In this document: positions 84 to 42,933 of the stretch, piece by piece | Layout of the letters: the number at the start of each line of letters is the position of its first letter | Numbering within the stretch: position 1 is the first letter of the stretch | Source: a virus | Virus record (IMG/VR): IMGVR_UViG_3300024346_000118 | Span: 1 to 47,245 of that record | Length of the DNA stretch: 47,245 nt | Strand: one strand, 5' to 3' | Notes under the pieces: model-generated | Databases searched by the model: none | What the model saw: only the letters and a program-made list of their open reading frames with translations | Told to the model about the DNA's origin: nothing | Position numbers and translations under genes: made by a program

Positions 84-3000
84 TTAGTCATTTCTATTTT
101 TTGGTATACCTGCTCGGTTTGATATTCCCTTCATATGCTGACGAATAAACGCCATTGCCGCAGTATGTGCTGGATGTTCTTTACTGTAATCCATTGCAGT
201 ATCTACTTTTACTTGATTACCTGTTTCTGGATTGACAATTCGCATCTGCATCAATTTTTTAAATAAATCCTTGTTTCCAGACTTTTTCTGCTTACCCTTC
301 TTTTCATTACCCGACGTTCCTTGAATAAATGGAGACGGGTATGGATTTCCGTGCCCCAATACTTTCACAGGCATTGTATGTCCAATTGCCGCCAACACGG
401 ATAATCGTGTATTACCGCCTAATAAATAATATCCATCAATATGTTTAATTACGATTGGCATTGCTATAGGTTTTTGTGCTTTAATATCTTTTAATAAGCC
501 GGTTACATCTTGCTTACGTCCTAATAAGTTTTTAAGGATTTGCATTTTATTTTTTCCACTTAACACATCCGGTACATCGCTGTTTGTCAAGTTATTTAGT
601 TCATCACGCGTCAATACCTCACTGGGAGCCTTTGTAATCATATCTTTTAATTCTGCAGAACTATCGGCAATGTTGGGAAATGCTTCCAAAGTTCGTTCGT
701 TCTTAAAATATTCATCTGCTTCATCATCTAAATCTTCGTCCGTATATTCACGTATAGATACATAGACTTTTAATTTATCAGACTTCGTATTTTCGGTTAG
801 TATGGATTCATTTGCATTCATTGCAGCTTGTACTATTTTTTCTGCTGCTTTTCTTACCGGTTCGTCTTCTGGATATTTTAGTGCAGTTGCTACCAAGATA
901 TCCCGATTTGTTTTTGGATTACGAACTTTTTGACCAAGTACTGATTTTGCCCGACCAAGTGCCTCTGCATCTGGCTTTTTCTTACCCTGCTTCGTACCAG
1001 CATCTGGCGCCGCTTTCTTACCAGACTTTTTTGCTTTTCCATGCATATCCGTAAGTTTACGAGCTTCTTCTGCGTCGGAAGCTTTCTTAACAACTTTATC
1101 AAAAATCTTCTTATCAAATTTACCATATACCTTCGTAAAAATTTCTTGTTTTGCTCTATCGGTAATATTTGGGTCACCCATTACTGAACGAAGTTGTGAA
1201 CCACTAATTTCTTTACCATTTACTTCCAAATTCGGTGGGGGACCAATCCAGATATACCCAGCAGTTCTAAACCCCGTCATTTTTTCGTTAGGGTCATATT
1301 TTTGAAAATATTTTCCGCCTAATCGTTCAGCATCTTTTTCTCCAACTGCAAATACAACAGGAGTATTTTCTGGAAAATTCTGTGTTATTTCTACTGGACT
1401 ATATGGATTTTTTGTTTGTACAATGCGGTCTTCTGGTATACCAAACATTGCCATCATAATTTCTTGTTTTTCTTTAAACGAGAACGGTGATGTAACACTG
1501 TCTTGTTTATCGGAAGTGGCTATATATACATTTTCTTTTCCAAACTTTTCTACCAACGCATTATATGTAACTTGATGTCCTGCATGATATGGTTGGAACC
1601 GTCCTGGATAAATTGCAATTGGTTTTGCTGGTTCGGTTGGTGTTTCTGGTTGTGGCGGTTCTTCTGATTTTTTTGGAGCGTCTGGTAAATTATAAGTTAT
1701 TTCGTATTCCTTTTTAGCAATACGATAGAACCCGTCACCATCTTTCACCAAATAATCACCGGGCTTCAATACCATTTGTTCTCCCCACGGAGCAGTAAAC
1801 GTTACTTCGTCGGTTCCGTCATAGCGTGCAACTTGTCTCGGAGATTGTTCTGGTATTACTGTACCATCTTCTTGTTTCGTATATAATTTTTCAAACTTTG
1901 CTGATTTTACTACATATTTTTCTCCACTTGGACCAGACATAATAATATCACCTGGTACTGCGGTATTTTCTGTTTCTTTACCGTCTGCCGTAATGGTTAC
2001 TACCTTCATCTCAGATGTAGCAGTAGCAAATGTCATAGGTTCCATACCTTCTAAGGCGGAACTATCGGCAATTTCTCCATGTGGTTTATATGGTAATGCT
2101 TTTTTAGTGACAGGTGTAAACTCTAATTTATCGGTCACTGATTTAATATCTTTTGGTGTTTCGGATGGTTTTGGCTCTTCTACTTTTTCTGGTGCTCTAT
2201 TGTACTTCATGGTTCCTATGATTTGATTCACTGGAGCAAATGCACCCGTCAATTTATATGGATTGCCGTTGTACGTGAAAATTAATCCTTCACTTGGAAC
2301 GACATTATCAATGCCCAATTCTTTTAATCGAGCCAATTCATATTCTAACTTCTGTAGCTTTTCAGGTCCACCTGCTTGTTGTATACCACGAATACTGTCA
2401 GCAAATTCTTTCTTCAATTCCTCGGCCATTACTGGATTATTTGCCGATAAGAATTCAACAACTCGTTTTAATGCATACACACCTGCTGATAAAAATACCT
2501 GCTCCATTGGTCTAACTGATTGTTTTAACAGTGGTTTTAAACTTGTTTTTTCAAACTCTCTAAACCATTCTTTTTTCTCGTCCGATAAATTTTTTACACC
2601 AAATTTTTTATCGCTGTCAACCCATCTGCTAACAAGACCTGCTCTTTCTGCACCAGTAAATTTAAACCCTTGTTCACTTTCTATAGTGTTCAATTGCTCA
2701 TTCCACCATTCCTTTAAATAATCTTGTAACGTATCGGTGGGTTTTAAATTATATTGACTTCTAATGTCTTCTAACTTAGCAGACAATGTATCGTATGCTT
2801 GTTGCGTTTCTTCCGTTACTTTATCAGAAATAGCAACAGTTCGTGGGCCTGATATACCAAAGGTACGTTGTTTATCAGCATTTACTTTAGTAACTGCGTC
2901 AGAAATTACTTTTCCATTTTGAGTATTTTGTACACCAACTTTTTCTCCGTCATCATCGTGTTCTAATGTACCATGAAATACTAATACCGTCTTATCGTAT

Positions 3001-4382
3001 GGAATTACATTACGAGTGCCTGGGTAAATAATTTCTGTACTCATCACACTACGTCCATTTCCAAACACTTGTTCAATTTGTTCTGGTGATAATTTGCTCA
3101 TTGCTTCTTGAATGTCTTCTGCTGCTTTTGTAAACGCATCAGAAATTTCTCCACGACCAGCAAACATAGCAGACAATTCTTCAACACTTAATGCTTTCTC
3201 TGCACGATTTTTTAAGTGTCCTTTGTTTCGTGCAAATACAACTTTTCCATCACGAATAGTAAATGCAATATTTTGACCGTCCATTTTTTCTACCACTGGT
3301 CCTTCTTTTTCTAAATTACCAACCAATGAACGATTAAGCATTTCATCAAAATCTTGAAACGATAAGTCGGTGTCTTCAAATGGATGCGCCAAATGTCCGT
3401 GTGCACCGCCTTCCATGAGGTATTTTCCGGTTTGATTCCAGCACTTATGGCACATGAATGGATGTTTGCCACCCTTTTCTGCAGCCCATTTCCAACCACA
3501 CGCTCTACATTGAATCGTATTTTCTGATAGGTATATATTACGGTCTAGCTTCCCATAATCACGAAGTAAAATACCGGCAATAATATTTGCACTATTTTCA
3601 ATACGTGACCCCGTTGCGCCGTCAATTTCGGGATTCGTAATATACCCCATTTCATTTTGTTTTTGATGTGCCATTTCATGGGCAATCGTTCGTAGAATAT
3701 CGGCCAACAATCGTCCACGTGCAATCACACTAATAGTATTGGTTAATACATCATATGAACCCAACGAAGTCATACCGGCAGTTGGTTCTAATACTACAAT
3801 TTTAGGCATACTACGAAGATTTAATCGGCGTACGGTATATTCTACAAATTGATAAATATTGTGTAAGTTGGTACTTTCCACAACCAACTCAAAAATTTCA
3901 TTAACTTTATCTCGTCCATGATCTTTTTTTGCCAGTTTCCATGACCCACCATTTGGACCCTTTGGGTGATGTACATCGTGATTTTTCATTTTACTTTTGC
4001 CGTGCTTCTTGACTGCCTTTGCACGGTCACGATTACGGGCAACTCTATCTTTTACGGTATCTTTTAAATATTTACGAACTTTTTCTGGATGGCGCTTATA
4101 ATATTTACGAACTCGCTCCGTACTGGATTTTTCTTCTTTTTGTATGAATTCATCATCCTGTTCTGGGCCTATGGAATCAGGATAAATAAAGCCCGGTTTT
4201 GGATGATAGTCGGGCTTGTTTGGGTCATCATCAAATGATGGTTGTTTCTCATCAGAATCATTATAATTGGCAAACCGAGACGTTAATGTCGGAGTAACGG
4301 GCTTTATGGGTTTTTTATGTGACCCATTATAGCCGTTTAATGCGTAATCCGGAGAATCATATGCGTTATATTCTTCATTCAT
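84..4382 (-). CDS. Giant multidomain enzyme polyprotein (HNH-like, HEXXH zincin, KxDG nucleotidyltransferase, HxGH nucleotidylyltransferase, ParB-like)
   Basis: This 1432-residue protein strings together several enzyme-like domains. Residues about 100-160 form a basic HNH-like segment (NHDVHHP, then GPNGGSW). Residues 190-320 look like a zinc metallopeptidase with HEMAH at 235-239, followed by a four-cysteine zinc ribbon (CRAC 292-295, CHKC 311-314). Residues 335-720 resemble a covalent nucleotidyltransferase of the RNA/DNA-ligase type, with KMDG at 366-369, EGLIF at 698-702 and a lysine at 710. Residues 920-1100 are an HxGH nucleotidylyltransferase (GRFQPYHAGH 927-936, ISGSQLR 1059-1065). 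Residues 1300-1342 are ParB-like (LLGGNTRLSVLAAIGH). A 34-residue motif occurs twice (1151-1184 and 1381-1414). Pro/Lys-rich linkers separate the parts. No clear ribosome binding site precedes the ATG. The domain calls are by eye; the overall role (virion-injected enzyme, NAD or nucleic-acid repair, processed polyprotein) is unknown. Confidence 0.8.
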   Translation of the reverse strand: MNEEYNAYDSPDYALNGYNGSHKKPIKPVTPTLTSRFANYNDSDEKQPSFDDDPNKPDYHPKPGFIYPDSIGPEQDDEFIQKEEKSSTERVRKYYKRHPEKVRKYLKDTVKDRVARNRDRAKAVKKHGKSKMKNHDVHHPKGPNGGSWKLAKKDHGRDKVNEIFELVVESTNLHNIYQFVEYTVRRLNLRSMPKIVVLEPTAGMTSLGSYDVLTNTISVIARGRLLADILRTIAHEMAHQKQNEMGYITNPEIDGATGSRIENSANIIAGILLRDYGKLDRNIYLSENTIQCRACGWKWAAEKGGKHPFMCHKCWNQTGKYLMEGGAHGHLAHPFEDTDLSFQDFDEMLNRSLVGNLEKEGPVVEKMDGQNIAFTIRDGKVVFARNKGHLKNRAEKALSVEELSAMFAGRGEISDAFTKAAEDIQEAMSKLSPEQIEQVFGNGRSVMSTEIIYPGTRNVIPYDKTVLVFHGTLEHDDDGEKVGVQNTQNGKVISDAVTKVNADKQRTFGISGPRTVAISDKVTEETQQAYDTLSAKLEDIRSQYNLKPTDTLQDYLKEWWNEQLNTIESEQGFKFTGAERAGLVSRWVDSDKKFGVKNLSDEKKEWFREFEKTSLKPLLKQSVRPMEQVFLSAGVYALKRVVEFLSANNPVMAEELKKEFADSIRGIQQAGGPEKLQKLEYELARLKELGIDNVVPSEGLIFTYNGNPYKLTGAFAPVNQIIGTMKYNRAPEKVEEPKPSETPKDIKSVTDKLEFTPVTKKALPYKPHGEIADSSALEGMEPMTFATATSEMKVVTITADGKETENTAVPGDIIMSGPSGEKYVVKSAKFEKLYTKQEDGTVIPEQSPRQVARYDGTDEVTFTAPWGEQMVLKPGDYLVKDGDGFYRIAKKEYEITYNLPDAPKKSEEPPQPETPTEPAKPIAIYPGRFQPYHAGHQVTYNALVEKFGKENVYIATSDKQDSVTSPFSFKEKQEIMMAMFGIPEDRIVQTKNPYSPVEITQNFPENTPVVFAVGEKDAERLGGKYFQKYDPNEKMTGFRTAGYIWIGPPPNLEVNGKEISGSQLRSVMGDPNITDRAKQEIFTKVYGKFDKKIFDKVVKKASDAEEARKLTDMHGKAKKSGKKAAPDAGTKQGKKKPDAEALGRAKSVLGQKVRNPKTNRDILVATALKYPEDEPVRKAAEKIVQAAMNANESILTENTKSDKLKVYVSIREYTDEDLDDEADEYFKNERTLEAFPNIADSSAELKDMITKAPSEVLTRDELNNLTNSDVPDVLSGKNKMQILKNLLGRKQDVTGLLKDIKAQKPIAMPIVIKHIDGYYLLGGNTRLSVLAAIGHTMPVKVLGHGNPYPSPFIQGTSGNEKKGKQKKSGNKDLFKKLMQMRIVNPETGNQVKVDTAMDYSKEHPAHTAAMAFIRQHMKGISNRAGIPKNRND

Positions 4383-16563: not shown

Positions 16564-19500
16564 TTATACCGAGATTTGCGAATACCCATCTTCCTTTCGG
16601 ATTTCTATGAGACTATCCACCATATCTCGTGCAGTATCTAAGTGACTTACTATAAGTATGAAGTCAAACTGCGTTTTAAGTAAATTAAACAAGGTTTGCA
16701 TAGAATGCATATGCTCTGCATCAAGAACACCGAACCCCTCATCAATAATTAACATATTAGACTTTGGAAGGTTACTTGCGTTCAATAGTGCCACCCGAAT
16801 CGCCAAACTACTAACGAACCGTTCCATTCCCGAACTGTTCTCTAATGGCCAGATTCTATCAAAATCATAGTTTAATTTACCATTAATATTTTTCCCGTCA
16901 ACTTCCAACGATACTGTAAAATCCACGATCTGTGATAGTATACCATTAATTTCTGCTTCCATGTTAGGAATTGCCTTGCTCATCAGTTCATATGGGATAC
17001 CGTCCCGACCCACTGCTAGCATATAATGATTGTATGCTTCATACGTGAGTTCCAGTTCTTCGGCTTCCTTCAACTTATTCAGCAGTTCTTGCTTCTTTGA
17101 TTCCAATACACTAATATTGCCGTGCGATGTCCGAAGTTTTTGTTCAACGGTTTGCATCATCTTTTTATTCGTGGTAATCTTTTCTTGAATTTGTGCAATA
17201 TCAATATCAATTGCTTGATTATGTAGAATATTTTCTTCGTTGGTTTTATAAATAAGAATTTCATTCTCAATATTAGGAATAGAAATTTCTATTTTTTCAA
17301 GAACGACCTTACAACTTGCCAACACGGTTTTTGACTTTTCTACGTCAAAACCACATGATTCAATTTCTTTCTGGGCAACCAGTGCTTCCTCATATATTTC
17401 CTTATCCATTTCCAAAGGTTTCATCTTATCAATAATCTGTGTAATGGAATCTTCTTGGATTAATCGTTTTGCATTTAACTCGTCCAGTTCATTATTTACT
17501 GCTGCCAAATCTTCAATAACCGATGCATTGTTGGTGACGCACACATCACAATTTAAGTTATATTTGTAACTTGATAGTTTATTCTTAAATTTTGTTTTTT
17601 CATCAATTTTAGTATTCACAACACGAAGAGCACTATTTCCCTTTACCAAAATGTCATTTAACTTATTCCAGTTAGCTACTGATTCTTTAAGAGCACCCAT
17701 ATCATATTGCTCAAAGTCACTTAACGCATCAGTTAAATTCATTTCACTATCAGTCAATGCATATTGTGCAATTGCTACGTCTTCTTGTGCCTTCTTACGA
17801 TTGGTTGTTGCATTAGTTAATGCCTTGGTTAAGTCATCAAGATTACCAGACGTTGGTGGAACGGGACGTTTTAATTCTTGTGTAGAAATTAATACATCAT
17901 CAAGTAACTCACGACTTTCCTTAAGTTCCATGTGTTCTACTTCAATATGAGAAACTTCGTCCTGCGCTGCGTTCAGTTGATTGTGAGTAGATGCAATATT
18001 ATCAGTGACATCCGACTTCTTAAATCGTTTGAGAACTCCCGTAATTTCTTTTGCTTCACCGTGTGCTGCATCAAACAACTTATCAAAGATATTCAATCCC
18101 ATGAACTGAATGAGTAAATCTTTCCGTTCGGAATGGGACTTGTCAATAAAGAGGGCATTACTATTCTGACTACTCAGTGCCGTCATGATGAAATCTTCAT
18201 AAGTACCGACATAAGACCGAATATTTGCGTTCGTATCTCGGCGATCTTCGCCATTTAAATTAAGAATGTCCCCAGTGTCCAACACCTTCCAGAAGGAAGC
18301 GTCAACCTTGACATCGCCATTCTTTTTACGAGTACCAATTCTTTTAATTCCAAAGATTTCATTATTGATTTCAAACGTCAATTCACATTCAAAACTGTCC
18401 TTTCTATTATTGATGATGTGATCACCCTTGAATGCACGCGGAGTCTTGTCATAGAGACAAAACATGATTGCATCCATAATAGAACTCTTACCACTTGCGT
18501 TTGCTGCAAAGATTCCATACACACCCTTCATATTACTAAAATCTATTTCGTTGTTTTCTCCGTATGAAAACATATTAGAAAACTTAAACTTCAGTGGACG
18601 CCAGTGAATATTTCTAGATTGATCGTCATTAATAATTTTATTATTAAGGTCTTTATTGATCGTTTCAATTGCCGTTAACACATCCGTGCCCAACGAAGAG
18701 TGATTACGGAACAACCAATCTGAAATCAATGTATTTTGCAATGATACATCCGTTAAGTTCAACGTGTCATGTACATGAGTAGATGTATTTGCATTGACGA
18801 ATTTACCGGAACGATTTTTATTTACTGACATTTCAATAATATTATACTTGTTTCGTATAGTCGTCACAAGTTTCTTGACTTCTGTATTATCCAAGTCTCC
18901 CGTAAATAATCGCACACGGGCATTGGTTGGCATATATGACGGATATGTAATATTTCCGTTAACAACCTCTAATGTTACATATCCATAATCATTATGAAGG
19001 GGGACAAATTCAAATGTGTGTGACTGCACATCCCACAAACACCATCCGTGGTTATCAAGACTTTCCCCGTGGTTTTGCTGGATAAGAGATGACGCATAGA
19101 CAATTACTGGATTGCTATCTTGGAGCACTTGATGCTTGTGAATGTCACCTAACAACACCATGTCAAATTCGTCAAACGTGGCTACGTGTACGTGTCTATT
19201 TGTAATCGTGAATCCCGCATCGGTCGTTGAACCGTGAACAGGTCCGTGATACAATGCAATTCTATGTGAAGAATCACATTCGTCTGCACGTGGCCATTCT
19301 GTTGCCTCATCAAGAATAGACATGACTGCAAAGTCGGTGTCTGCCACCGTAATAATAGCAGAGTTCTTAATATAATAAAGATTTGGATGTTGTAAACTAT
19401 TCACGATTGGAGTAAGACTATCCAATCTGTTTGTATTGGCAAGATTACAATCGTGGTTTCCTGCGATTAAAATTGTTGGGGCAATGTCGGCAATACTTAC

Positions 19501-19728
19501 CAGAAACTTGGAAGTAACTTCCACCATTTCTGGAGACATATCCGTCTTTGCATGCACGATATCTCCTGCCAATACAATGACAAAATTTTCAAGCTTCTTT
19601 GCACGAATGTCTGCATACAATGTCTTAAACGCTGCTTCATATTCTTCATGCCGACGAAACAACCGAATGTGAATATCGGCAATGTGAACAATAGATTCTA
19701 ATTTAGTAAACGGAACATTTATTTTCAT
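16564..19728 (-). CDS. Single-chain Mre11-Rad50 (SbcD-SbcC, T4 gp47-gp46) fusion
   Basis: This 1054-residue protein combines both halves of the Mre11-Rad50 DNA-end-processing complex. Residues 1-270 are a calcineurin-like nuclease with the full phosphoesterase set: DIH 18-20, GDIVH 55-59, GNHD 90-93, H161 and GDIHKHQ 194-200. From about 385 it is a Rad50/SbcC ATPase: Walker A AANASGKSS 408-416, long coiled coils from about 570 to 900 broken by a zinc hook CDVC 727-730, signature SSGMERF 965-971, Walker B MLIIDEGFGVLD 992-1003 and an SH switch at 1028-1029. No stop or frameshift separates the halves. AAGAAGG precedes the ATG, which overlaps the upstream stop by four bases. It should resect or open DNA ends for recombination-dependent replication. 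Confidence 0.93.
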   Translation of the reverse strand: MKINVPFTKLESIVHIADIHIRLFRRHEEYEAAFKTLYADIRAKKLENFVIVLAGDIVHAKTDMSPEMVEVTSKFLVSIADIAPTILIAGNHDCNLANTNRLDSLTPIVNSLQHPNLYYIKNSAIITVADTDFAVMSILDEATEWPRADECDSSHRIALYHGPVHGSTTDAGFTITNRHVHVATFDEFDMVLLGDIHKHQVLQDSNPVIVYASSLIQQNHGESLDNHGWCLWDVQSHTFEFVPLHNDYGYVTLEVVNGNITYPSYMPTNARVRLFTGDLDNTEVKKLVTTIRNKYNIIEMSVNKNRSGKFVNANTSTHVHDTLNLTDVSLQNTLISDWLFRNHSSLGTDVLTAIETINKDLNNKIINDDQSRNIHWRPLKFKFSNMFSYGENNEIDFSNMKGVYGIFAANASGKSSIMDAIMFCLYDKTPRAFKGDHIINNRKDSFECELTFEINNEIFGIKRIGTRKKNGDVKVDASFWKVLDTGDILNLNGEDRRDTNANIRSYVGTYEDFIMTALSSQNSNALFIDKSHSERKDLLIQFMGLNIFDKLFDAAHGEAKEITGVLKRFKKSDVTDNIASTHNQLNAAQDEVSHIEVEHMELKESRELLDDVLISTQELKRPVPPTSGNLDDLTKALTNATTNRKKAQEDVAIAQYALTDSEMNLTDALSDFEQYDMGALKESVANWNKLNDILVKGNSALRVVNTKIDEKTKFKNKLSSYKYNLNCDVCVTNNASVIEDLAAVNNELDELNAKRLIQEDSITQIIDKMKPLEMDKEIYEEALVAQKEIESCGFDVEKSKTVLASCKVVLEKIEISIPNIENEILIYKTNEENILHNQAIDIDIAQIQEKITTNKKMMQTVEQKLRTSHGNISVLESKKQELLNKLKEAEELELTYEAYNHYMLAVGRDGIPYELMSKAIPNMEAEINGILSQIVDFTVSLEVDGKNINGKLNYDFDRIWPLENSSGMERFVSSLAIRVALLNASNLPKSNMLIIDEGFGVLDAEHMHSMQTLFNLLKTQFDFILIVSHLDTARDMVDSLIEIRKEDGYSQISV

Positions 19729-24640: not shown

Positions 24641-27600
24641 TTAAGTAACATTTAATTGTCCACCGCCGCCCGTAATTATTTCTTCATTGGTTTGCGTGGA
24701 AGCGACAACCAGATCAGTTCCTTCACTCAAGAATACTTGAATTGGCGGGAGTCCGTCAATTGTAGTATTTATGGTATTTTTACAACCCAAATAGTTTCTT
24801 CGTTTTGTTGCAGTTGTATTACTTCTAAAATACCTATAATGCTTTCTAAGATATCCCCACGGAACTCTGCGTTGGATTTGAATTGCAAAATAATACATTG
24901 ATATAACGAATCCAATTTTCTCTACAGGCGTTAAATTATTTATAGTGTAATATAAACGACCTTCCAGTGGCAAAGAATCTGATATTAACGTTACTATAGG
25001 ATCAACGACCTGTGCTATATTTGGTGTATCTATCGTAACATCTATGAGCACCCCGTCATTGATATCGGGCGCTTGATTTAATCCACGGTTGACATCCGCA
25101 TCTCTGGCTTCCGACGATCTATACAGTCGTATTCTAATCCCCGACGTATTTGCCTGTACTGCTAGTAATGCCGCTATATTTTGAACGATGAAATCGCCCT
25201 TGACGAAATAATTTGCGGATATATTCTCTATGTTATAATTATCAACGAATCTGTTTGGAAAATCAATTGCGGAATCAAGTGCAACATTCGTAAGTTTATA
25301 ATTTGTTAATACCGGATCTGGAATGGTGTACGTGTCAAATACCACCCGCCGTGGTTGATAATCAATTTCCGGTATAAATCGTATCAGTTCCCAGTTATTT
25401 CTATCTAACGACGGCGGCGTGAACGACGGAACACTGCCTGAATAGTATCTAACGTCTTCGTCAGGTTTAACGTATGCGGGGCGTGTGGTAAATGCATAGT
25501 ATTTTTTATTACCGGCACGTGAAGCTATAACGGTTTCTTGCCGCAAACTACCCGTGTCGCTTGGTAAAACGTCTTGTAATACTACATCATAAATATTGTA
25601 GGATGTACCAAACGACCACGTAGTGATACCTTCAAAATATTGTTCTTCATAATTCCATGCTTGATTTAATGGACGAATGTATGCAAGTTTCTTATTGACT
25701 ATAGGAAACTTATATACCCCCTCTGGATGGTTGAAAAATGTGTATACACCCATATCTCTAAAATCTGCGGTGGGTGGTATGTCGTATACCGCAGGTAGAT
25801 ATATACTTCTCGTGCCACCATAACGAGCCTTTTCAATTTCTAACGCCAATAGTTTTCTTGGATAAATTCTGTCAAACGGTTCCGCACCAGGTGATCCATT
25901 GTGCTTGTCGTTATACGGAATTTTATTCATTTCATAAAAATTTTGGTCAATCGTAGCAGTTATTGTATTATAATCAGTTGCTATAATAATGTTATCTGCG
26001 GTATTGAGTGTGCCCTCTATTTGTGAAATATCACCACTAAGTACGTCAGTTGTCATGCCAATTGATGATGTAAGCAGTGACGTTGTACCAGTGATTTGTA
26101 GTGTACGATCAATCTCGGTTTCTAATAACGTGTAGGTTCCAATCGTTTCTGGTTGCGGTTCTACCAAACCAGATACCGTATATGTAGCGCTGTAGTCTGG
26201 ATTACTACCCGTGAGGGAACCTGCTGCGCGCAATGTTCTTCTTGATTTATTACCGTATAACCGCGTATCTTTTACAAGAGGAATTCTTGTTTGTTCAAGT
26301 ATAGATTGTTCAATGATAATCCCCTTCAACACAGAGGCACGTGATGGTATAAAATAATCTACCACTTGATCCATTACCGACGAAACTTCCGATAAAATTC
26401 GGATATATTGATTCATATCCACGTCTACATAATAGTATCTATTATAGTATTTCCGCAGAGATTCTAATGATCGTCCAAAATTCTTATAAAGAGTTGTTGG
26501 AACTCCAAGCGCAGTATTGATATTTTCTATACCAAAATTACGAATTATATTTTGATTTATAATTTCAGTGGGGGAATTGGCCAAAACTATTTTATTTCGT
26601 CCTCTAGCAATCTTTTTATCGTGTGGACGGAACACGCTCTTTGTTTTATGAAGTCTCTTTACTCCATTCTTATCGGAGAAATTGGTAGGATGATCTACTA
26701 ATTTAATTTTATTAGAAACATATGATGTCACGCCAATTGTAGGAACTAACTGACGAATCGTTCTATTAAATCTTGCAATACTCCCCGTAGAAACATTTGA
26801 TGCTGAGATGTATCGTAATTCCACCGATGAGGATGGCGCTTCATTTAATAGGAGTGAACCGGTTGCAAGAGAACCTGTATCAATTTTGTTGAATGATAAC
26901 TGTACGAGTAGGTTATCTACCGCCGATGTATATGTGTCGCCTGCATTGGATCCTGGGTCAAATGCCGTATTGATTATGACTTCATCGGAGAGTAGGTCGT
27001 CCCACAGTCGTATTTCGTCTATAGTTCCTACGAACGACGAACTACCAAAAAACGATCCACTTCCACCAATATACAACTCATTCGTATTTTGCCAGTCGGC
27101 GTTGAATGAAGCAGATTCAGTTGCAAACGAATCAAAGAATATATCCGACTCTTCTGTTTTTACAATTCGGAGACTAGACTCTTCCGTACTAGATCTTATT
27201 GCAACACTAAATAACTCATTATTAAATATTTCTTCGTACCCCGTCGTCATCACGGTGCCACCAAGATTATCAAATAGTACTACTTTTCCAATTGCAGGGA
27301 TCGTCGGATGTGGGATTGCCGCAAGTTCCCAGCCAAGATCACTATTAACAATTGTGGTAAACTTATTATTATCTAATGCCACGTGCATCTGCAACGTCTT
27401 TGCGCCCGTTGCCATAGGAATTGTTATATATGGCGAAACAGAACTACTTTGCGCAATCGTCGTCTCACCAAAATATATTCCGTTTGAATACTCATCAAAT
27501 ATACGGAATGACCCAGATGTTGCAATTCCCGTTTCTTTAGCTGAGATCAGTGAATTGTTAAATCCAAGAACTTTAATTAATGTTAGTAGTGATGTTCGTG

Positions 27601-29317
27601 ATCCTTTTGATTTTGCAAAAAACGGAAGATTGTGTAGTAATCTTTTATAGATTTCTGCCGTAAGATCTCGGCGAGGTTCGTCTGCTTCCGTACCAAGTAT
27701 GTTATCCGCTAGATTATAGATAGAGTTAATAGTCGGCATCGTGAACCCAACGGATTCAGCAATTTCATTAATTAAATCCTTTGACAATCCAGTATTCGGG
27801 TCTAGTCCACGGTCATATATGTACGGGAAATGATCCACATATGGTTTTAGCGTGTCAAAGAAATGTCCAATCATTGTAACAAATGTTATATACGAAGAGT
27901 TTTCTTCGTGCTCTCGCACATGTGTTGGAATCGTATTAACTAAATTATTTTCGTTGAATTCATCGTACCGTTGCCCAATCTCAATTTGCGTAGTATACCA
28001 TTCTTCGGCAACTTCACTATACACAGGTGCTATACTATTCCCTATCTTCGGCCAGTATGATGACGAATTAAACTCCGTTGCATTATCTGCATACCACGCA
28101 GATGCCGTATATTGCGAGTTTGCTCCCGATGTAAAATATAAATGTTGCTCATACCGATCAAACGAACGAATGATATCTTCCTTTTCCTTTGCATATTGAG
28201 CACTTTTATCTTGAATAAATACTGCGGCAGCAGAGGAAGTTTGCATTGAATACACCGATGACGATAAAAATTGTTGTCGGTTATATTCGGTAGTTTCTAT
28301 AAGTTTTAGTTTTTCACGGAATGCCGATACCCGCATAGCAGCAGATCCATAAAATACAAATTTATTATAATCGGTAAAATCTAGATTTAGTTCTGCTGAC
28401 TTGAAATCGTACGAGTACCATCGTCTAAAGATTTGATCCTCAAACGTTCTATTTTTGTAGATGTCTTCTGAACCAACTGAACCAGTTTGTAGAGATAATA
28501 AATTCAGTGTAACATTATTTAGTACTTTACCTAAATTCAAGTCAGTGTTTACTGCTAAATTTTTCGGCCGGAGGTATGGTGTTTCGTCTATTGCCGGTGC
28601 AAATCTTACTCTAATTTTATCAATTAAAGTTTTTGCAACTTCTCTACTTAAAAATACAGACGTTTGTGGCTCTATTTCTTCGGGAACCGGTTGAAGTAAT
28701 TTCAATTGAATCGTCTGTACGCCGTTTATATCCGGTGCACCATATCTATACGCCAGTGCCACGGTTTGTTTATCTTCACCGTAGTTTAATAACGTTTTCA
28801 GCTCTCGTTCTTCATCAACGTAATTGGTTAGTATAGAACTTAAAAATGCATACGATGCACTGATTAAGGGCTCTGAGATATTTACATCAATTAAGTTTGT
28901 TTTAACTTCAAACGGATAGTTTAATGTTATATTTTGTTCTTGGGTAGAGACAGGAAGTACTCTTATGTTTATGGGATAATTAAGTCCGATTTTTATTGGT
29001 TCGGAGTTATAATTAACATTACCTGCAACTGGATTTAATGGTATTGTGTCGTACTGAACGGGCTGTAATTCTGAGGGATTGACAGCTAAGTATGTTCCAT
29101 CCAATACACCGCCGCCTTCGGTACGGACGACTCCTGCCCTATATGCAGCTGCTGTTGCTGGGTAGCCAACTTCGTCCACCCACACATATCCGCCATCTGC
29201 TCTGGCTATTCTAACGTATTTATCCGGTATGTTATTTCCCACCTCAAAGGCAACGGCTTCTTGTAAGGATATACGTCGGTATCTACGATTATTATAAAAA
29301 ATTTCGTCGTCTGCCAT
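24641..29317 (-). CDS. Giant baseplate wedge protein (gp7-like candidate) with gpI-like segment and LamG-like insertion
   Basis: This 1558-residue protein lies in the baseplate operon where T4-like phages carry large wedge proteins. Around residues 480-590 it shows the pattern of P2 gpI-type tail proteins: FFDTLKPYVDHFPYIYDRG, then a YKRLLHNLPFFAKSKGSR helix leading to LIKVLGF. Residues about 620-785 read as a LamG/concanavalin jelly roll ending FVGTIDEIRLWDDLLSDE. The C-terminal third is Tyr/Arg-rich and beta-like. There is no enzyme motif. An internal lectin-like insertion could place a sugar-binding face on the baseplate rim. Equivalence to T4 gp7 is inferred from position and size, not from sequence identity. 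Confidence 0.72.
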   Translation of the reverse strand: MADDEIFYNNRRYRRISLQEAVAFEVGNNIPDKYVRIARADGGYVWVDEVGYPATAAAYRAGVVRTEGGGVLDGTYLAVNPSELQPVQYDTIPLNPVAGNVNYNSEPIKIGLNYPINIRVLPVSTQEQNITLNYPFEVKTNLIDVNISEPLISASYAFLSSILTNYVDEERELKTLLNYGEDKQTVALAYRYGAPDINGVQTIQLKLLQPVPEEIEPQTSVFLSREVAKTLIDKIRVRFAPAIDETPYLRPKNLAVNTDLNLGKVLNNVTLNLLSLQTGSVGSEDIYKNRTFEDQIFRRWYSYDFKSAELNLDFTDYNKFVFYGSAAMRVSAFREKLKLIETTEYNRQQFLSSSVYSMQTSSAAAVFIQDKSAQYAKEKEDIIRSFDRYEQHLYFTSGANSQYTASAWYADNATEFNSSSYWPKIGNSIAPVYSEVAEEWYTTQIEIGQRYDEFNENNLVNTIPTHVREHEENSSYITFVTMIGHFFDTLKPYVDHFPYIYDRGLDPNTGLSKDLINEIAESVGFTMPTINSIYNLADNILGTEADEPRRDLTAEIYKRLLHNLPFFAKSKGSRTSLLTLIKVLGFNNSLISAKETGIATSGSFRIFDEYSNGIYFGETTIAQSSSVSPYITIPMATGAKTLQMHVALDNNKFTTIVNSDLGWELAAIPHPTIPAIGKVVLFDNLGGTVMTTGYEEIFNNELFSVAIRSSTEESSLRIVKTEESDIFFDSFATESASFNADWQNTNELYIGGSGSFFGSSSFVGTIDEIRLWDDLLSDEVIINTAFDPGSNAGDTYTSAVDNLLVQLSFNKIDTGSLATGSLLLNEAPSSSVELRYISASNVSTGSIARFNRTIRQLVPTIGVTSYVSNKIKLVDHPTNFSDKNGVKRLHKTKSVFRPHDKKIARGRNKIVLANSPTEIINQNIIRNFGIENINTALGVPTTLYKNFGRSLESLRKYYNRYYYVDVDMNQYIRILSEVSSVMDQVVDYFIPSRASVLKGIIIEQSILEQTRIPLVKDTRLYGNKSRRTLRAAGSLTGSNPDYSATYTVSGLVEPQPETIGTYTLLETEIDRTLQITGTTSLLTSSIGMTTDVLSGDISQIEGTLNTADNIIIATDYNTITATIDQNFYEMNKIPYNDKHNGSPGAEPFDRIYPRKLLALEIEKARYGGTRSIYLPAVYDIPPTADFRDMGVYTFFNHPEGVYKFPIVNKKLAYIRPLNQAWNYEEQYFEGITTWSFGTSYNIYDVVLQDVLPSDTGSLRQETVIASRAGNKKYYAFTTRPAYVKPDEDVRYYSGSVPSFTPPSLDRNNWELIRFIPEIDYQPRRVVFDTYTIPDPVLTNYKLTNVALDSAIDFPNRFVDNYNIENISANYFVKGDFIVQNIAALLAVQANTSGIRIRLYRSSEARDADVNRGLNQAPDINDGVLIDVTIDTPNIAQVVDPIVTLISDSLPLEGRLYYTINNLTPVEKIGFVISMYYFAIQIQRRVPWGYLRKHYRYFRSNTTATKRRNYLGCKNTINTTIDGLPPIQVFLSEGTDLVVASTQTNEEIITGGGGQLNVT

Positions 29318-41353: not shown

Positions 41354-41980
41354 TTACCTCTCAATCGTTGCATAGTAATCATTTTGCGTACGTTGCCGAT
41401 CAACATCCTTAATATGATACAGTGCCCATTCTTCTTCAGACGGGAGTGGCGCCATTGTTTTATAGCCTACAATCCGTTCATGGACCTTACCTTCCCATCG
41501 AATATCAGGTGAGTTTCTATATAGGCGTGTCTGATAGTCTGGGAACATGACCCATCCCTGTTCATTAACTTGCCATCCCCATCGTTTAATGTCTTCATCG
41601 GTTAGTCCGTTTACGACATTCACACGAGGAATTGCAAATAAATCAATGTTAGTATTATTTTCTACAATATCATGTAAATAAGTTAGCAAATTATTATTGA
41701 ACTTCTCGTCCGCATCTACTTGAAAAATATAATCTCCCGAACACTGTTCCGTCAGAAAGTTCTTGTGTTCCGCAAAATTATTGTTTAACGCATGTTTAAT
41801 TAACTTAATCTCACCGCCAGTTGCATATGCGTCCAACAATGCCACCGTAAATTCATCGGTTGAATAATCGTCAACGACCACAATCTCATCTCCAGTTTGT
41901 TCGCAAAATGGAACCAACTGACTTAGTAGGTTCTGGATATATTCACCTTCATTATGTGTTGTAATCGCGAAACTAATCAT
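41354..41980 (-). CDS. Family 2 glycosyltransferase
   Basis: This 208-residue GT-A-fold glycosyltransferase opens with MISFAITTHNEGEYI and has IVVVDDYSTD around 33-42 and the metal-binding DxD motif (VDADE) at 88-92. The segment WEGKVHERIVGY near the end is typical of short GT2 enzymes. The start at 41980 has GGAG 7 bases upstream; a TTG four codons earlier is not used. The ATG overlaps the UvdE stop by four bases. It may decorate phage DNA, a virion glycan or the host surface. Confidence 0.85.
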   Translation of the reverse strand: MISFAITTHNEGEYIQNLLSQLVPFCEQTGDEIVVVDDYSTDEFTVALLDAYATGGEIKLIKHALNNNFAEHKNFLTEQCSGDYIFQVDADEKFNNNLLTYLHDIVENNTNIDLFAIPRVNVVNGLTDEDIKRWGWQVNEQGWVMFPDYQTRLYRNSPDIRWEGKVHERIVGYKTMAPLPSEEEWALYHIKDVDRQRTQNDYYATIER

Positions 41981-42873
41981 GTTAAACTCCAATATTTAAA
42001 TAGGGCAAGTTCTTTGGCCTTGGCTTCTAGGTCAATGTCAATAGTCAGTCCAAAGTCGTCAATTTTATTGAACACATAATCTGCATGCGCACGAGGATTG
42101 CCCGTGACATTTTCATTTAAATTTTTAGATTCACTATAGTGAAATAGCGGCGTCATGTTTTTCCATGTAAATGTTGCAAGTATTGCTGCTTCTTTTGTAG
42201 TCAATCCATCGGGATGAAATTGATGATGAAAATAATCAAACGTAATGGGCAAGTATAATACTTTGTGCAAATGGTCAAACAATTGTTGTACTGAAAATCC
42301 CGATGCTTTGTCGTCATTTTCTACTACAAGCCGTGCTTTACAATTATCAGATAACCGATGATATGCTGCAATCCATCTATCGGCTACTTCCTTAGAAAAA
42401 TTCATACCAACATGAATATTTAGCGCATTATACGGAGTTGCCGTAAGACCCATAAGATCAAATATGGTAGAATGAAGTTCAAGATCTTTGATCGAATTCT
42501 CAACAACAGTAGGTTTAGCCGATGCAAGTTTTACGAAATGATCAGGGTGAGCAGTAATACGTTGTCCGTACTGCGTAGCAAGTTTACCGGCAGTTTGAAG
42601 AACTTTACAAATGTCATCGTATTGTGGCAAATCTGCAAGATTGTATTCAGTACCCCACGGAAAAATACCCGATCCCATTCGGAATACCTTGACATTGTTA
42701 TCCTCGTTCCATTGGATAATGCGAACGAGATCAATTGCATTGGCAAGAGCAAGTTCAGACGCATACGTCAAACCTTTTTGTTTAAAAGTGCGTTGAATCA
42801 TACCACGACCAGTGGTAATTTTTTGCTTTTGTAATGTTACATTAATACAACAATAACCGACTTGATGTGACAT
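41977..42873 (-). CDS. uvsE: UV-damage endonuclease (UvdE/UvsE family)
   Basis: This 298-residue enzyme matches the UVDE family, which nicks DNA 5' of UV photoproducts to start repair. Seen motifs are GYCCIN at the start, RMGSGIFPWGTE, AHPDHF, ALNIHVG, LVVENDD and FDYFHHQFHP, then HYSES. These carry the His, Glu and Asp residues that bind three metal ions in the TIM barrel. The start chosen is the ATG at 42873, with AAAGGT upstream; a reading from 42930 adds 19 non-homologous residues. It is coupled by ATGA to a glycosyltransferase. Confidence 0.9.
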   Translation of the reverse strand: MSHQVGYCCINVTLQKQKITTGRGMIQRTFKQKGLTYASELALANAIDLVRIIQWNEDNNVKVFRMGSGIFPWGTEYNLADLPQYDDICKVLQTAGKLATQYGQRITAHPDHFVKLASAKPTVVENSIKDLELHSTIFDLMGLTATPYNALNIHVGMNFSKEVADRWIAAYHRLSDNCKARLVVENDDKASGFSVQQLFDHLHKVLYLPITFDYFHHQFHPDGLTTKEAAILATFTWKNMTPLFHYSESKNLNENVTGNPRAHADYVFNKIDDFGLTIDIDLEAKAKELALFKYWSLT

Positions 42874-42933
42874 GTATGTAACCTTTGGTTGAGTTATCTT
42901 AAACTTAATACATTGACATGCAATTGTCAAGTA

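Follow-up and report, generated by a model that had tools for sequence, protein, structure and literature searches.

A candidate head-packaged multienzyme precursor with RNA-ligase-like and NMNAT-type domains, predicted to be cut by the prohead protease in T4-like aquatic phages

The IMG/VR virus record IMGVR_UViG_3300024346_000118 was analysed over a stretch of 47,245 bases (the window), which codes on its minus strand for a protein of 1432 residues in a single ATG-started open reading frame (ORF, 84-4382). This protein is probably a multienzyme precursor of T4-like aquatic phages that is packaged into the head, cut there by the prohead protease and ejected with the DNA, its ligase-like domain sealing RNA and its nicotinamide mononucleotide adenylyltransferase (NMNAT) domain making nicotinamide adenine dinucleotide (NAD+). 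The reading is built on folds, conserved motifs, conserved cleavage sites and synteny with a protease gene, all observed in this analysis; cleavage, packaging and injection of the window protein and the two substrates are what these observations would imply.

Domain folds and relatives

Two AlphaFold models were used, one of the region around the KxDG motif (residues 327-740, aligned with 57 relatives; predicted local distance difference test (pLDDT) 89.9, predicted template modelling score (pTM) 0.85) and one of residues 172-1371. Compared with the PDB by VIA-align, the first model retrieved nucleic-acid ligases in all 50 matches listed: Naegleria RNA ligase (Z 9.7, the highest value, over 188 residues at 3.7 Å), fungal tRNA ligase (9.1), T4 Rnl1 (9.0), T4 RNA ligase 2 and an editing ligase (7.8), with DNA ligases lower. 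Foldseek likewise placed RNA ligases first, with E-values of only about 0.002-0.01, and in a viral structure library the domain's own relatives were followed by RNA ligases. Across 58 aligned relatives E-K-x-D-G, R-N-K, E, E-G, K-x-T-G and N-Q are invariant (in domain numbering E39-K40-D42-G43, E372-G373 and K384), and the window protein presents the ligase motifs in the fitting order EKMDG, ARNK, E450, EGLIF, YKLTG. On the model we assign the domain to the RNA-ligase-type covalent nucleotidyltransferase fold. With the Naegleria enzyme, Trl1 and T4 Rnl1/Rnl2 it shares this fold and the motif order KxDG - RNK - E - EGhhF - K; it differs in having no detectable sequence match to them, a helical insert of about 170 residues, modelled before EGLIF, and K-x-T as motif V.

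The HxGH domain adopts in the second model a Rossmann-like fold that matches the bifunctional NMNAT 2r5w with Z 11.9. GRFQP, the last His and SG-x3-R are invariant or nearly so among 23 HxGH relatives. The best NCBIfam matches of the window protein are NMN adenylyltransferases, but far below the equivalog cut-offs, and the PHROGs match is 'cytidyltransferase'. With its HxGH and ISxxxxR motifs the modelled domain is assigned to the NMNAT/HxGH nucleotidylyltransferases. The N-terminal HEMAH domain is, by its model, a zincin: the fold resembles selecase (Z 8.8), Wss1 and Spartan (both 8.7), and HExxH and a downstream Glu are invariant in five zincin relatives. The original prediction, which gave no strand, had placed all these motifs in one ORF and claimed four domains. 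The motifs are present, on the minus strand; zincin, ligase-like and NMNAT domains have the expected folds, KxDG and HxGH lying in the right ones by structure prediction and PDB comparison, whereas the ParB-like region was not confirmed, as it has no Pfam match and is poorly modelled. The relative L004 alone (loci are numbered with L) gave a ParB_N match there (20.7 bits, below the curated cut-off of 26.3), profiles of this region and of the zincin found nothing significant among PDB sequences, and the ParB-like assignment is weak. Pfam returned for the whole protein weak matches only, both just below curated cut-offs: a cytidylyltransferase-like one (residues 924-1021) and PGDYG (806-897; E 2.4e-5, 25 bits where the cut-off is 27), a domain missed by the original prediction. 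The KxDG region has no Pfam family.

At least 528 IMG/VR stretches encode relatives of the KxDG domain, in full-length proteins of about 400 to 1846 residues; an exact-peptide scan of cellular genomes gave no relatives. Named phages appeared as distant matches only, with changing module orders: HxGH then KxDG in the isolated Microcystis phage Mel-JY01 (protein WWT39297.1), and in two uncultured huge phages ParB, HxGH, KxDG (LR756508) or two adjacent genes (LR756500). The ligase-like domain is widespread in aquatic phages and shuffled with other modules. Among 44 scanned relatives a cytidylyltransferase-like domain occurred in 30, a P-loop kinase (Zeta_toxin/AAA_33; matched in seven by the PHROG polynucleotide kinase) in 13 and a poly(A)-polymerase/CCA-type head (tRNA-nucleotidyltransferase) in two; HD, RNase T and peptidase domains were found in single members each. 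The largest relative, of 1846 residues (L065:1651-7188), joins NMNAT-like, zincin, CCA-adding-enzyme-like and ligase-like modules behind the leader MNKLSQFLVEQMLLE. Since ligase-like, kinase and cytidyltransferase modules recur together in varied arrangements, we suppose a shared task.

A similar set of genes surrounds DUF6267 (PF19782, Kyanoviridae), which shares a KWDG motif with the KxDG family and whose genes neighbour kinase and cytidyltransferase genes. In Pelagibacter phage HTVC008M the KWDG protein, a P-loop kinase and a cytidyltransferase are all encoded within four consecutive genes, and in HTVC008M, P-HM1, syn9 and S-CRM01 (L292, L294, L295, L297) cytidyltransferase genes are found next to the DUF6267 genes or not far from them. 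Possibly DUF6267 forms a second family of ligase-like proteins that does the same job. Homology is not claimed, as the profile match to the KxDG family by hhalign was not significant; a literature search on DUF6267 yielded no paper.

A less probable, though serious, alternative is that the KxDG domain belongs elsewhere in the superfamily, as a DNA nick ligase, an RNA-capping enzyme or a nucleotidylyltransferase modifying RNA or protein, and works with the NMNAT domain on NAD-linked chemistry. The substrate cannot be read from the likeness of fold, motif V departs from the usual form, and the pairing of KxDG with NMNAT-type domains in differing orders hints at a common substrate such as NAD+. 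However, the best structural matches are RNA ligases, with DNA ligases ranking below, and the partner modules in the relatives are RNA-repair-like. An NAD+-dependent ligase recycling its own NMN through the fused NMNAT was considered as a hypothetical alternative.

Predicted cleavage sites and internal starts

The prohead protease gp21 of T4 cuts after (L/I)xE (PMC9026906). Directly before the ligase-like domain Glu was found in 84 of 126 distinct relatives, with Leu or Ile at P3 in 81 of these 84 and nine different amino acids at P2, counts which come from related, not independent sequences and are, like the other motif counts below, not to be taken as probabilities. By its sequence the (L/I)xE↓GG junction (arrow, predicted cut) matches the published gp21 signal. 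The background frequency of (L/I)xE is 0.9% per residue; within the ligase-like domain the motif is rarer by a factor of four than elsewhere. Of 16 kinase modules 14 directly follow the motif, and all 12 PRKKGQHR modules directly follow a Glu. Many relatives start with an N-terminal leader ending in LxE; in five-residue bins over the first 20 residues (L/I)xE was counted 12, 21, 34 and 9 times against 2.4 expected. Among 17 major capsid protein sequences read from the same phages, 14 have an (L/I)xE near residue 60 with Ala or Ser after it, two others have LxE↓N and VxE↓A at about this place, and that of LR756500 differs. In the window protein the two best sites, E324 (LME↓GG, LMEGG being residues 322-326) and E1197 (ILTE↓N), lie in linkers of low pLDDT, and the position of the latter is kept in L007 (VISE↓A) and L008 (MLME↓S). 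In Mel-JY01 the junction reads NIIAE↓GGLGGHMNHPF. One junction (L014:3600) has Cys before the ligase-like domain (ILLLC↓GG); all others have Glu or Met.

Met replaces Glu in 41 of the 126 junctions. In 35 of the 41, codons -5/-4 are AAG GAG, a Shine-Dalgarno sequence nine bases before an in-frame ATG, while these codons encode only 20 of the 478 Lys-Glu pairs at other places in these proteins, and a six-base Shine-Dalgarno match precedes not one of the 475 further in-frame Met codons in 22 Met-type ORFs. The Met junction of L097 has the residues Arg-Ser instead, yet keeps AGGAG in a different codon phase. The frame upstream is open for at least 219 codons in all but one of 54 Met-type loci, some of them chosen by a DNA pattern; this pattern scan selects for AAGGAG, and its hits were excluded from every start-site statistic. 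In the Met-type locus L206 a stop lies 14 codons upstream, so that the ligase-like gene stands alone with the conserved ATG as its only possible start. A tree built from 122 domains calls for about 11 switches between Glu and Met, at least seven of them on supported branches. Initiator Met is removed before Gly. With it removed, the enzyme would begin with Gly-Gly just as after the protease cut, and we read the interchange in these sequences as selection for a free N-terminus at the Gly-Gly residue. A purely structural LxE-GG with Met variants arising by chance was rejected in view of the codon statistics and the tree.

It is unlikely that the protein is a stable, uncut multidomain enzyme of late infection in which (L/I)xEGG merely begins the ligase-like fold. 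Right after the site GG-x-x-GH-x-x-HP is likewise conserved, and the Glu could be structural; but P3 and P1 are fixed while P2 varies freely, the same motif precedes unrelated modules, the LME↓GG site lies in a low-pLDDT linker, and the exchange of Glu for Met comes with a Shine-Dalgarno sequence at the DNA level, which is sensible only if a new N-terminus is needed at the junction. With a slight lean to doubt we extend the proposed head-packaged precursor to a general picture: the virion would carry a modular protease-matured polyprotein that delivers a kit for RNA repair and NAD restoration, and its prohead-protease site would have been swapped repeatedly for an in-frame ribosome-binding site and ATG at the same residue, the ligase-like enzyme always starting with Gly-Gly.

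Processing, packaging and known systems

Of the 35 records of relatives, 23 yielded a gene for a Peptidase S77 prohead protease; Mel-JY01 has an S77 protease too. In 22 of the 23 it lies downstream on the same strand at 7.2-21.5 kb (median 8.7 kb), and in LR756500 about 40 kb downstream, again on the same strand. The original prediction had supposed a polyprotein cut by its own peptidase. The polyprotein gains support from the conserved (L/I)xE sites between modules of the relatives; for the cutting we favour the prohead protease, because the (L/I)xE↓GG junction is conserved even though HExxH is missing from most relatives that carry this junction. Known zincin families would not lead one to expect a preference for Glu. 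Still less likely than an uncut enzyme, and indeed improbable, is auto-processing by the zincin domain before packaging or after injection, for which speak its complete and conserved active site and the zincin processing proposed for phage P1 DdrB (Iyer et al. 2017, PMC5512222), but against which stand the agreement of the site with the gp21 signal as published and the presence of an S77 gene downstream wherever the contig extends far enough.

Mass spectrometry detected the cytidylyltransferase gp154 of S-CREM2 (three unique peptides) and the NMNAT of S-SCSM1 in virions of these cyanophages (PMC10665884, PMC9602691). Their N-termini read MKNFSSFLTE↓A and MKSFLQFLKE↓A, respectively; in both, (L/I)xE ends at residue 10, and the capsid targeting sequence of T4 is just as long (PMC9026906). 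The cyanophage proteins (S-SCSM1, S-CREM2, S-CBWM1) share the HxGH nucleotidylyltransferase with the window protein, the leader resembling a capsid targeting sequence and the virion detection being theirs; their genes stand alone, unfused, and several cyanophages have a separate DUF6267 KWDG gene nearby. Also detected in virions was S-CREM2 gp156 (L296:7013-7726), a Pol-beta-type nucleotidyltransferase (NTP_transf_2) encoded two genes past the virion cytidylyltransferase. The carriage in the virion suggested by the original prediction is supported by these NMNAT-like relatives, and its statement that no such system had been described was too strong, since they and the polyvalent proteins were known (PMC5512222, PMC10665884, PMC9602691).

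Polyvalent proteins are multidomain proteins of phages and conjugative elements, large polypeptides joining unrelated enzymes with zincins and ParB-like domains, whose injection with the DNA was predicted (Iyer et al. 2017, PMC5512222). The window protein resembles them in being a single phage polypeptide made of several enzymatic domains unrelated to one another. However, the main text of that paper mentions no RNA-ligase-like, cytidylyltransferase or PGDYG domain, and processing is ascribed to the zincin there, to the prohead protease here (PMC5512222). The internal head proteins of T4 (IPI-III, Alt) have an N-terminal leader ending in (L/I)xE, are cleaved by gp21 and are ejected into the host (PMC9026906); they are single proteins freed from a leader, whereas in the window family enzymes are joined in one chain with sites between them. 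In the literature searched we found neither the ligase-like domain nor the shuffled set of ligase, NMNAT and kinase, and neither prohead-protease sites between enzyme modules nor their interchange with an internal translation start.

In the proposed course of events the precursor would be synthesised together with the late or head genes and taken up into the prohead, where the S77 (gp21-type) protease would cut at the (L/I)xE sites between the modules. Products would be (a) the zincin with the zinc ribbon, (b) the RNA-ligase-like, PGDYG and NMNAT domains and (c) the ParB-like tail. Ejected with the phage DNA, the cut enzymes would protect the first minutes of the phage in the cell: the ligase-like domain, adenylated on K366, may seal RNA, e.g., tRNAs nicked by a host defence, and the NMNAT domain may convert NMN to NAD+ and so offset NAD+ depletion. 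Sequence conservation and synteny support the steps up to cutting, and modelled folds and partner modules point to the substrates. A role in RNA repair is suggested because relatives add kinase and tRNA-nucleotidyltransferase domains and because KWDG, kinase and cytidyltransferase genes are neighbours in HTVC008M; RNA repair with restoration of NAD+ appears the likeliest job.

Several observations weigh against a packaged, cut and active multienzyme precursor. The N-terminus of the window protein has no recognisable capsid-targeting leader. The motif is short, and 11 copies of (L/I)xE occur in the protein, most of them within domains. S77 protease and major capsid genes were not found in the 47-kb record, which is probably a fragment, and Met-type relatives need no cutting at the junction. 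Motif V of covalent nucleotidyltransferases is usually K-x-K, with two lysines; here K384-x-T386 is invariant, and therefore we name the domain ligase-like and not RNA ligase, its activity not being assured. The ligase-like profile matched nothing sensible among PDB sequences. The first His of HxGH, intact in the window protein, is Gly in many relatives. With the 1432-residue protein the cyanophage virion NMNATs share only the HxGH module, to which they are distantly related, and such proteins are often detected in cyanophages, with carry-over contamination possible, according to the virion-proteome papers (PMC10665884, PMC9602691).

Other features of the window and significance

The features of the precursor are collected in Table 1. 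The pattern NPxTxxxIxVxTAxxYxxxxPxxxAA is present twice in its C-terminal part, and copy 1 belongs to a small helical unit that was confidently modelled. Elsewhere on the minus strand of the window, a single 1054-residue ORF (16564-19728) has a calcineurin-like phosphoesterase (SbcD/gp47-like) fused to an SMC/AAA_23 ATPase (SbcC/gp46-like), two proteins usually encoded by separate genes. A UvdE-type UV endonuclease is encoded at 41977-42930 (Pfam E 1.3e-48), and a 1558-residue protein without PHROG match and with weak Pfam matches only is encoded near baseplate-like genes (24641-29317).

Table 1. Features of the multienzyme precursor in the window (positions in nucleotides of the window; arrow, predicted cut)
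Feature	Position	Strand	Residues	Basis or remark
Multienzyme precursor ORF	84-4382	minus	1432 in total	ORF call; same protein in a second IMG/VR contig (L002)
Zincin metallopeptidase-like domain	3540-3869	minus	172-281	alignment and model; downstream Glu invariant
HEMAH	3666-3680	minus	235-239	zincin motif
Candidate additional site LSE↓N	3519-3530	minus	E287	weak, motif only; also in L007 and L008
Zinc-ribbon-like, two C-x2-C pairs	3441-3509	minus	292-314	sequence only
Predicted prohead-protease site LME↓GG	3405-3419	minus	cut after E324	low-confidence linker directly before ligase-like domain
RNA-ligase-like covalent nucleotidyltransferase domain	2178-3410	minus	325-735	alignment, model, structure comparison
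KMDG	3276-3287	minus	EKMDG, 365-369	ligase-like domain
EGLIF	2277-2291	minus	698-702	ligase-like domain
YKLTG	2244-2258	minus	K710	ligase-like domain, motif V
PGDYG domain	1692-1967	minus	806-897	Pfam, slightly under cut-off
NMNAT-type nucleotidylyltransferase	1038-1625	minus	920-1115	profiles, alignment, model; Z 11.9 to 2r5w
GRFQPYHAGH	1575-1604	minus	927-936	NMNAT-type domain
ISGSQLR	1188-1208	minus	1059-1065	NMNAT-type domain
Repeat motif VRNPKTNRDILVATALKYPEDEPVRKAAEK, copy 1	837-926	minus		motif reading
Predicted prohead-protease site ILTE↓N	789-806	minus	cut after E1197	upstream of ParB-like region; low-pLDDT linker
ParB-like region	348-785	minus	1200-1345	weak assignment
GGNTRLSVLAAIGH	378-419	minus	GGNTR, 1322-1326	within ParB-like region
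Repeat motif IVNPETGNQVKVDTAMDYSKEHPAHTAA, copy 2	156-239	minus		motif reading

By this analysis an unnamed domain that is widespread in aquatic phages gains a fold and a likely role. The precursor leads to the prediction that tailed phages use a polyprotein strategy, with cutting inside the head, that is better known from eukaryotic RNA viruses, and the interchange of protease site and internal start would be an unusual natural experiment on freeing an enzyme from a fusion. It becomes testable which enzymes T4-like aquatic phages may inject against tRNA-cutting and NAD-depleting defences.

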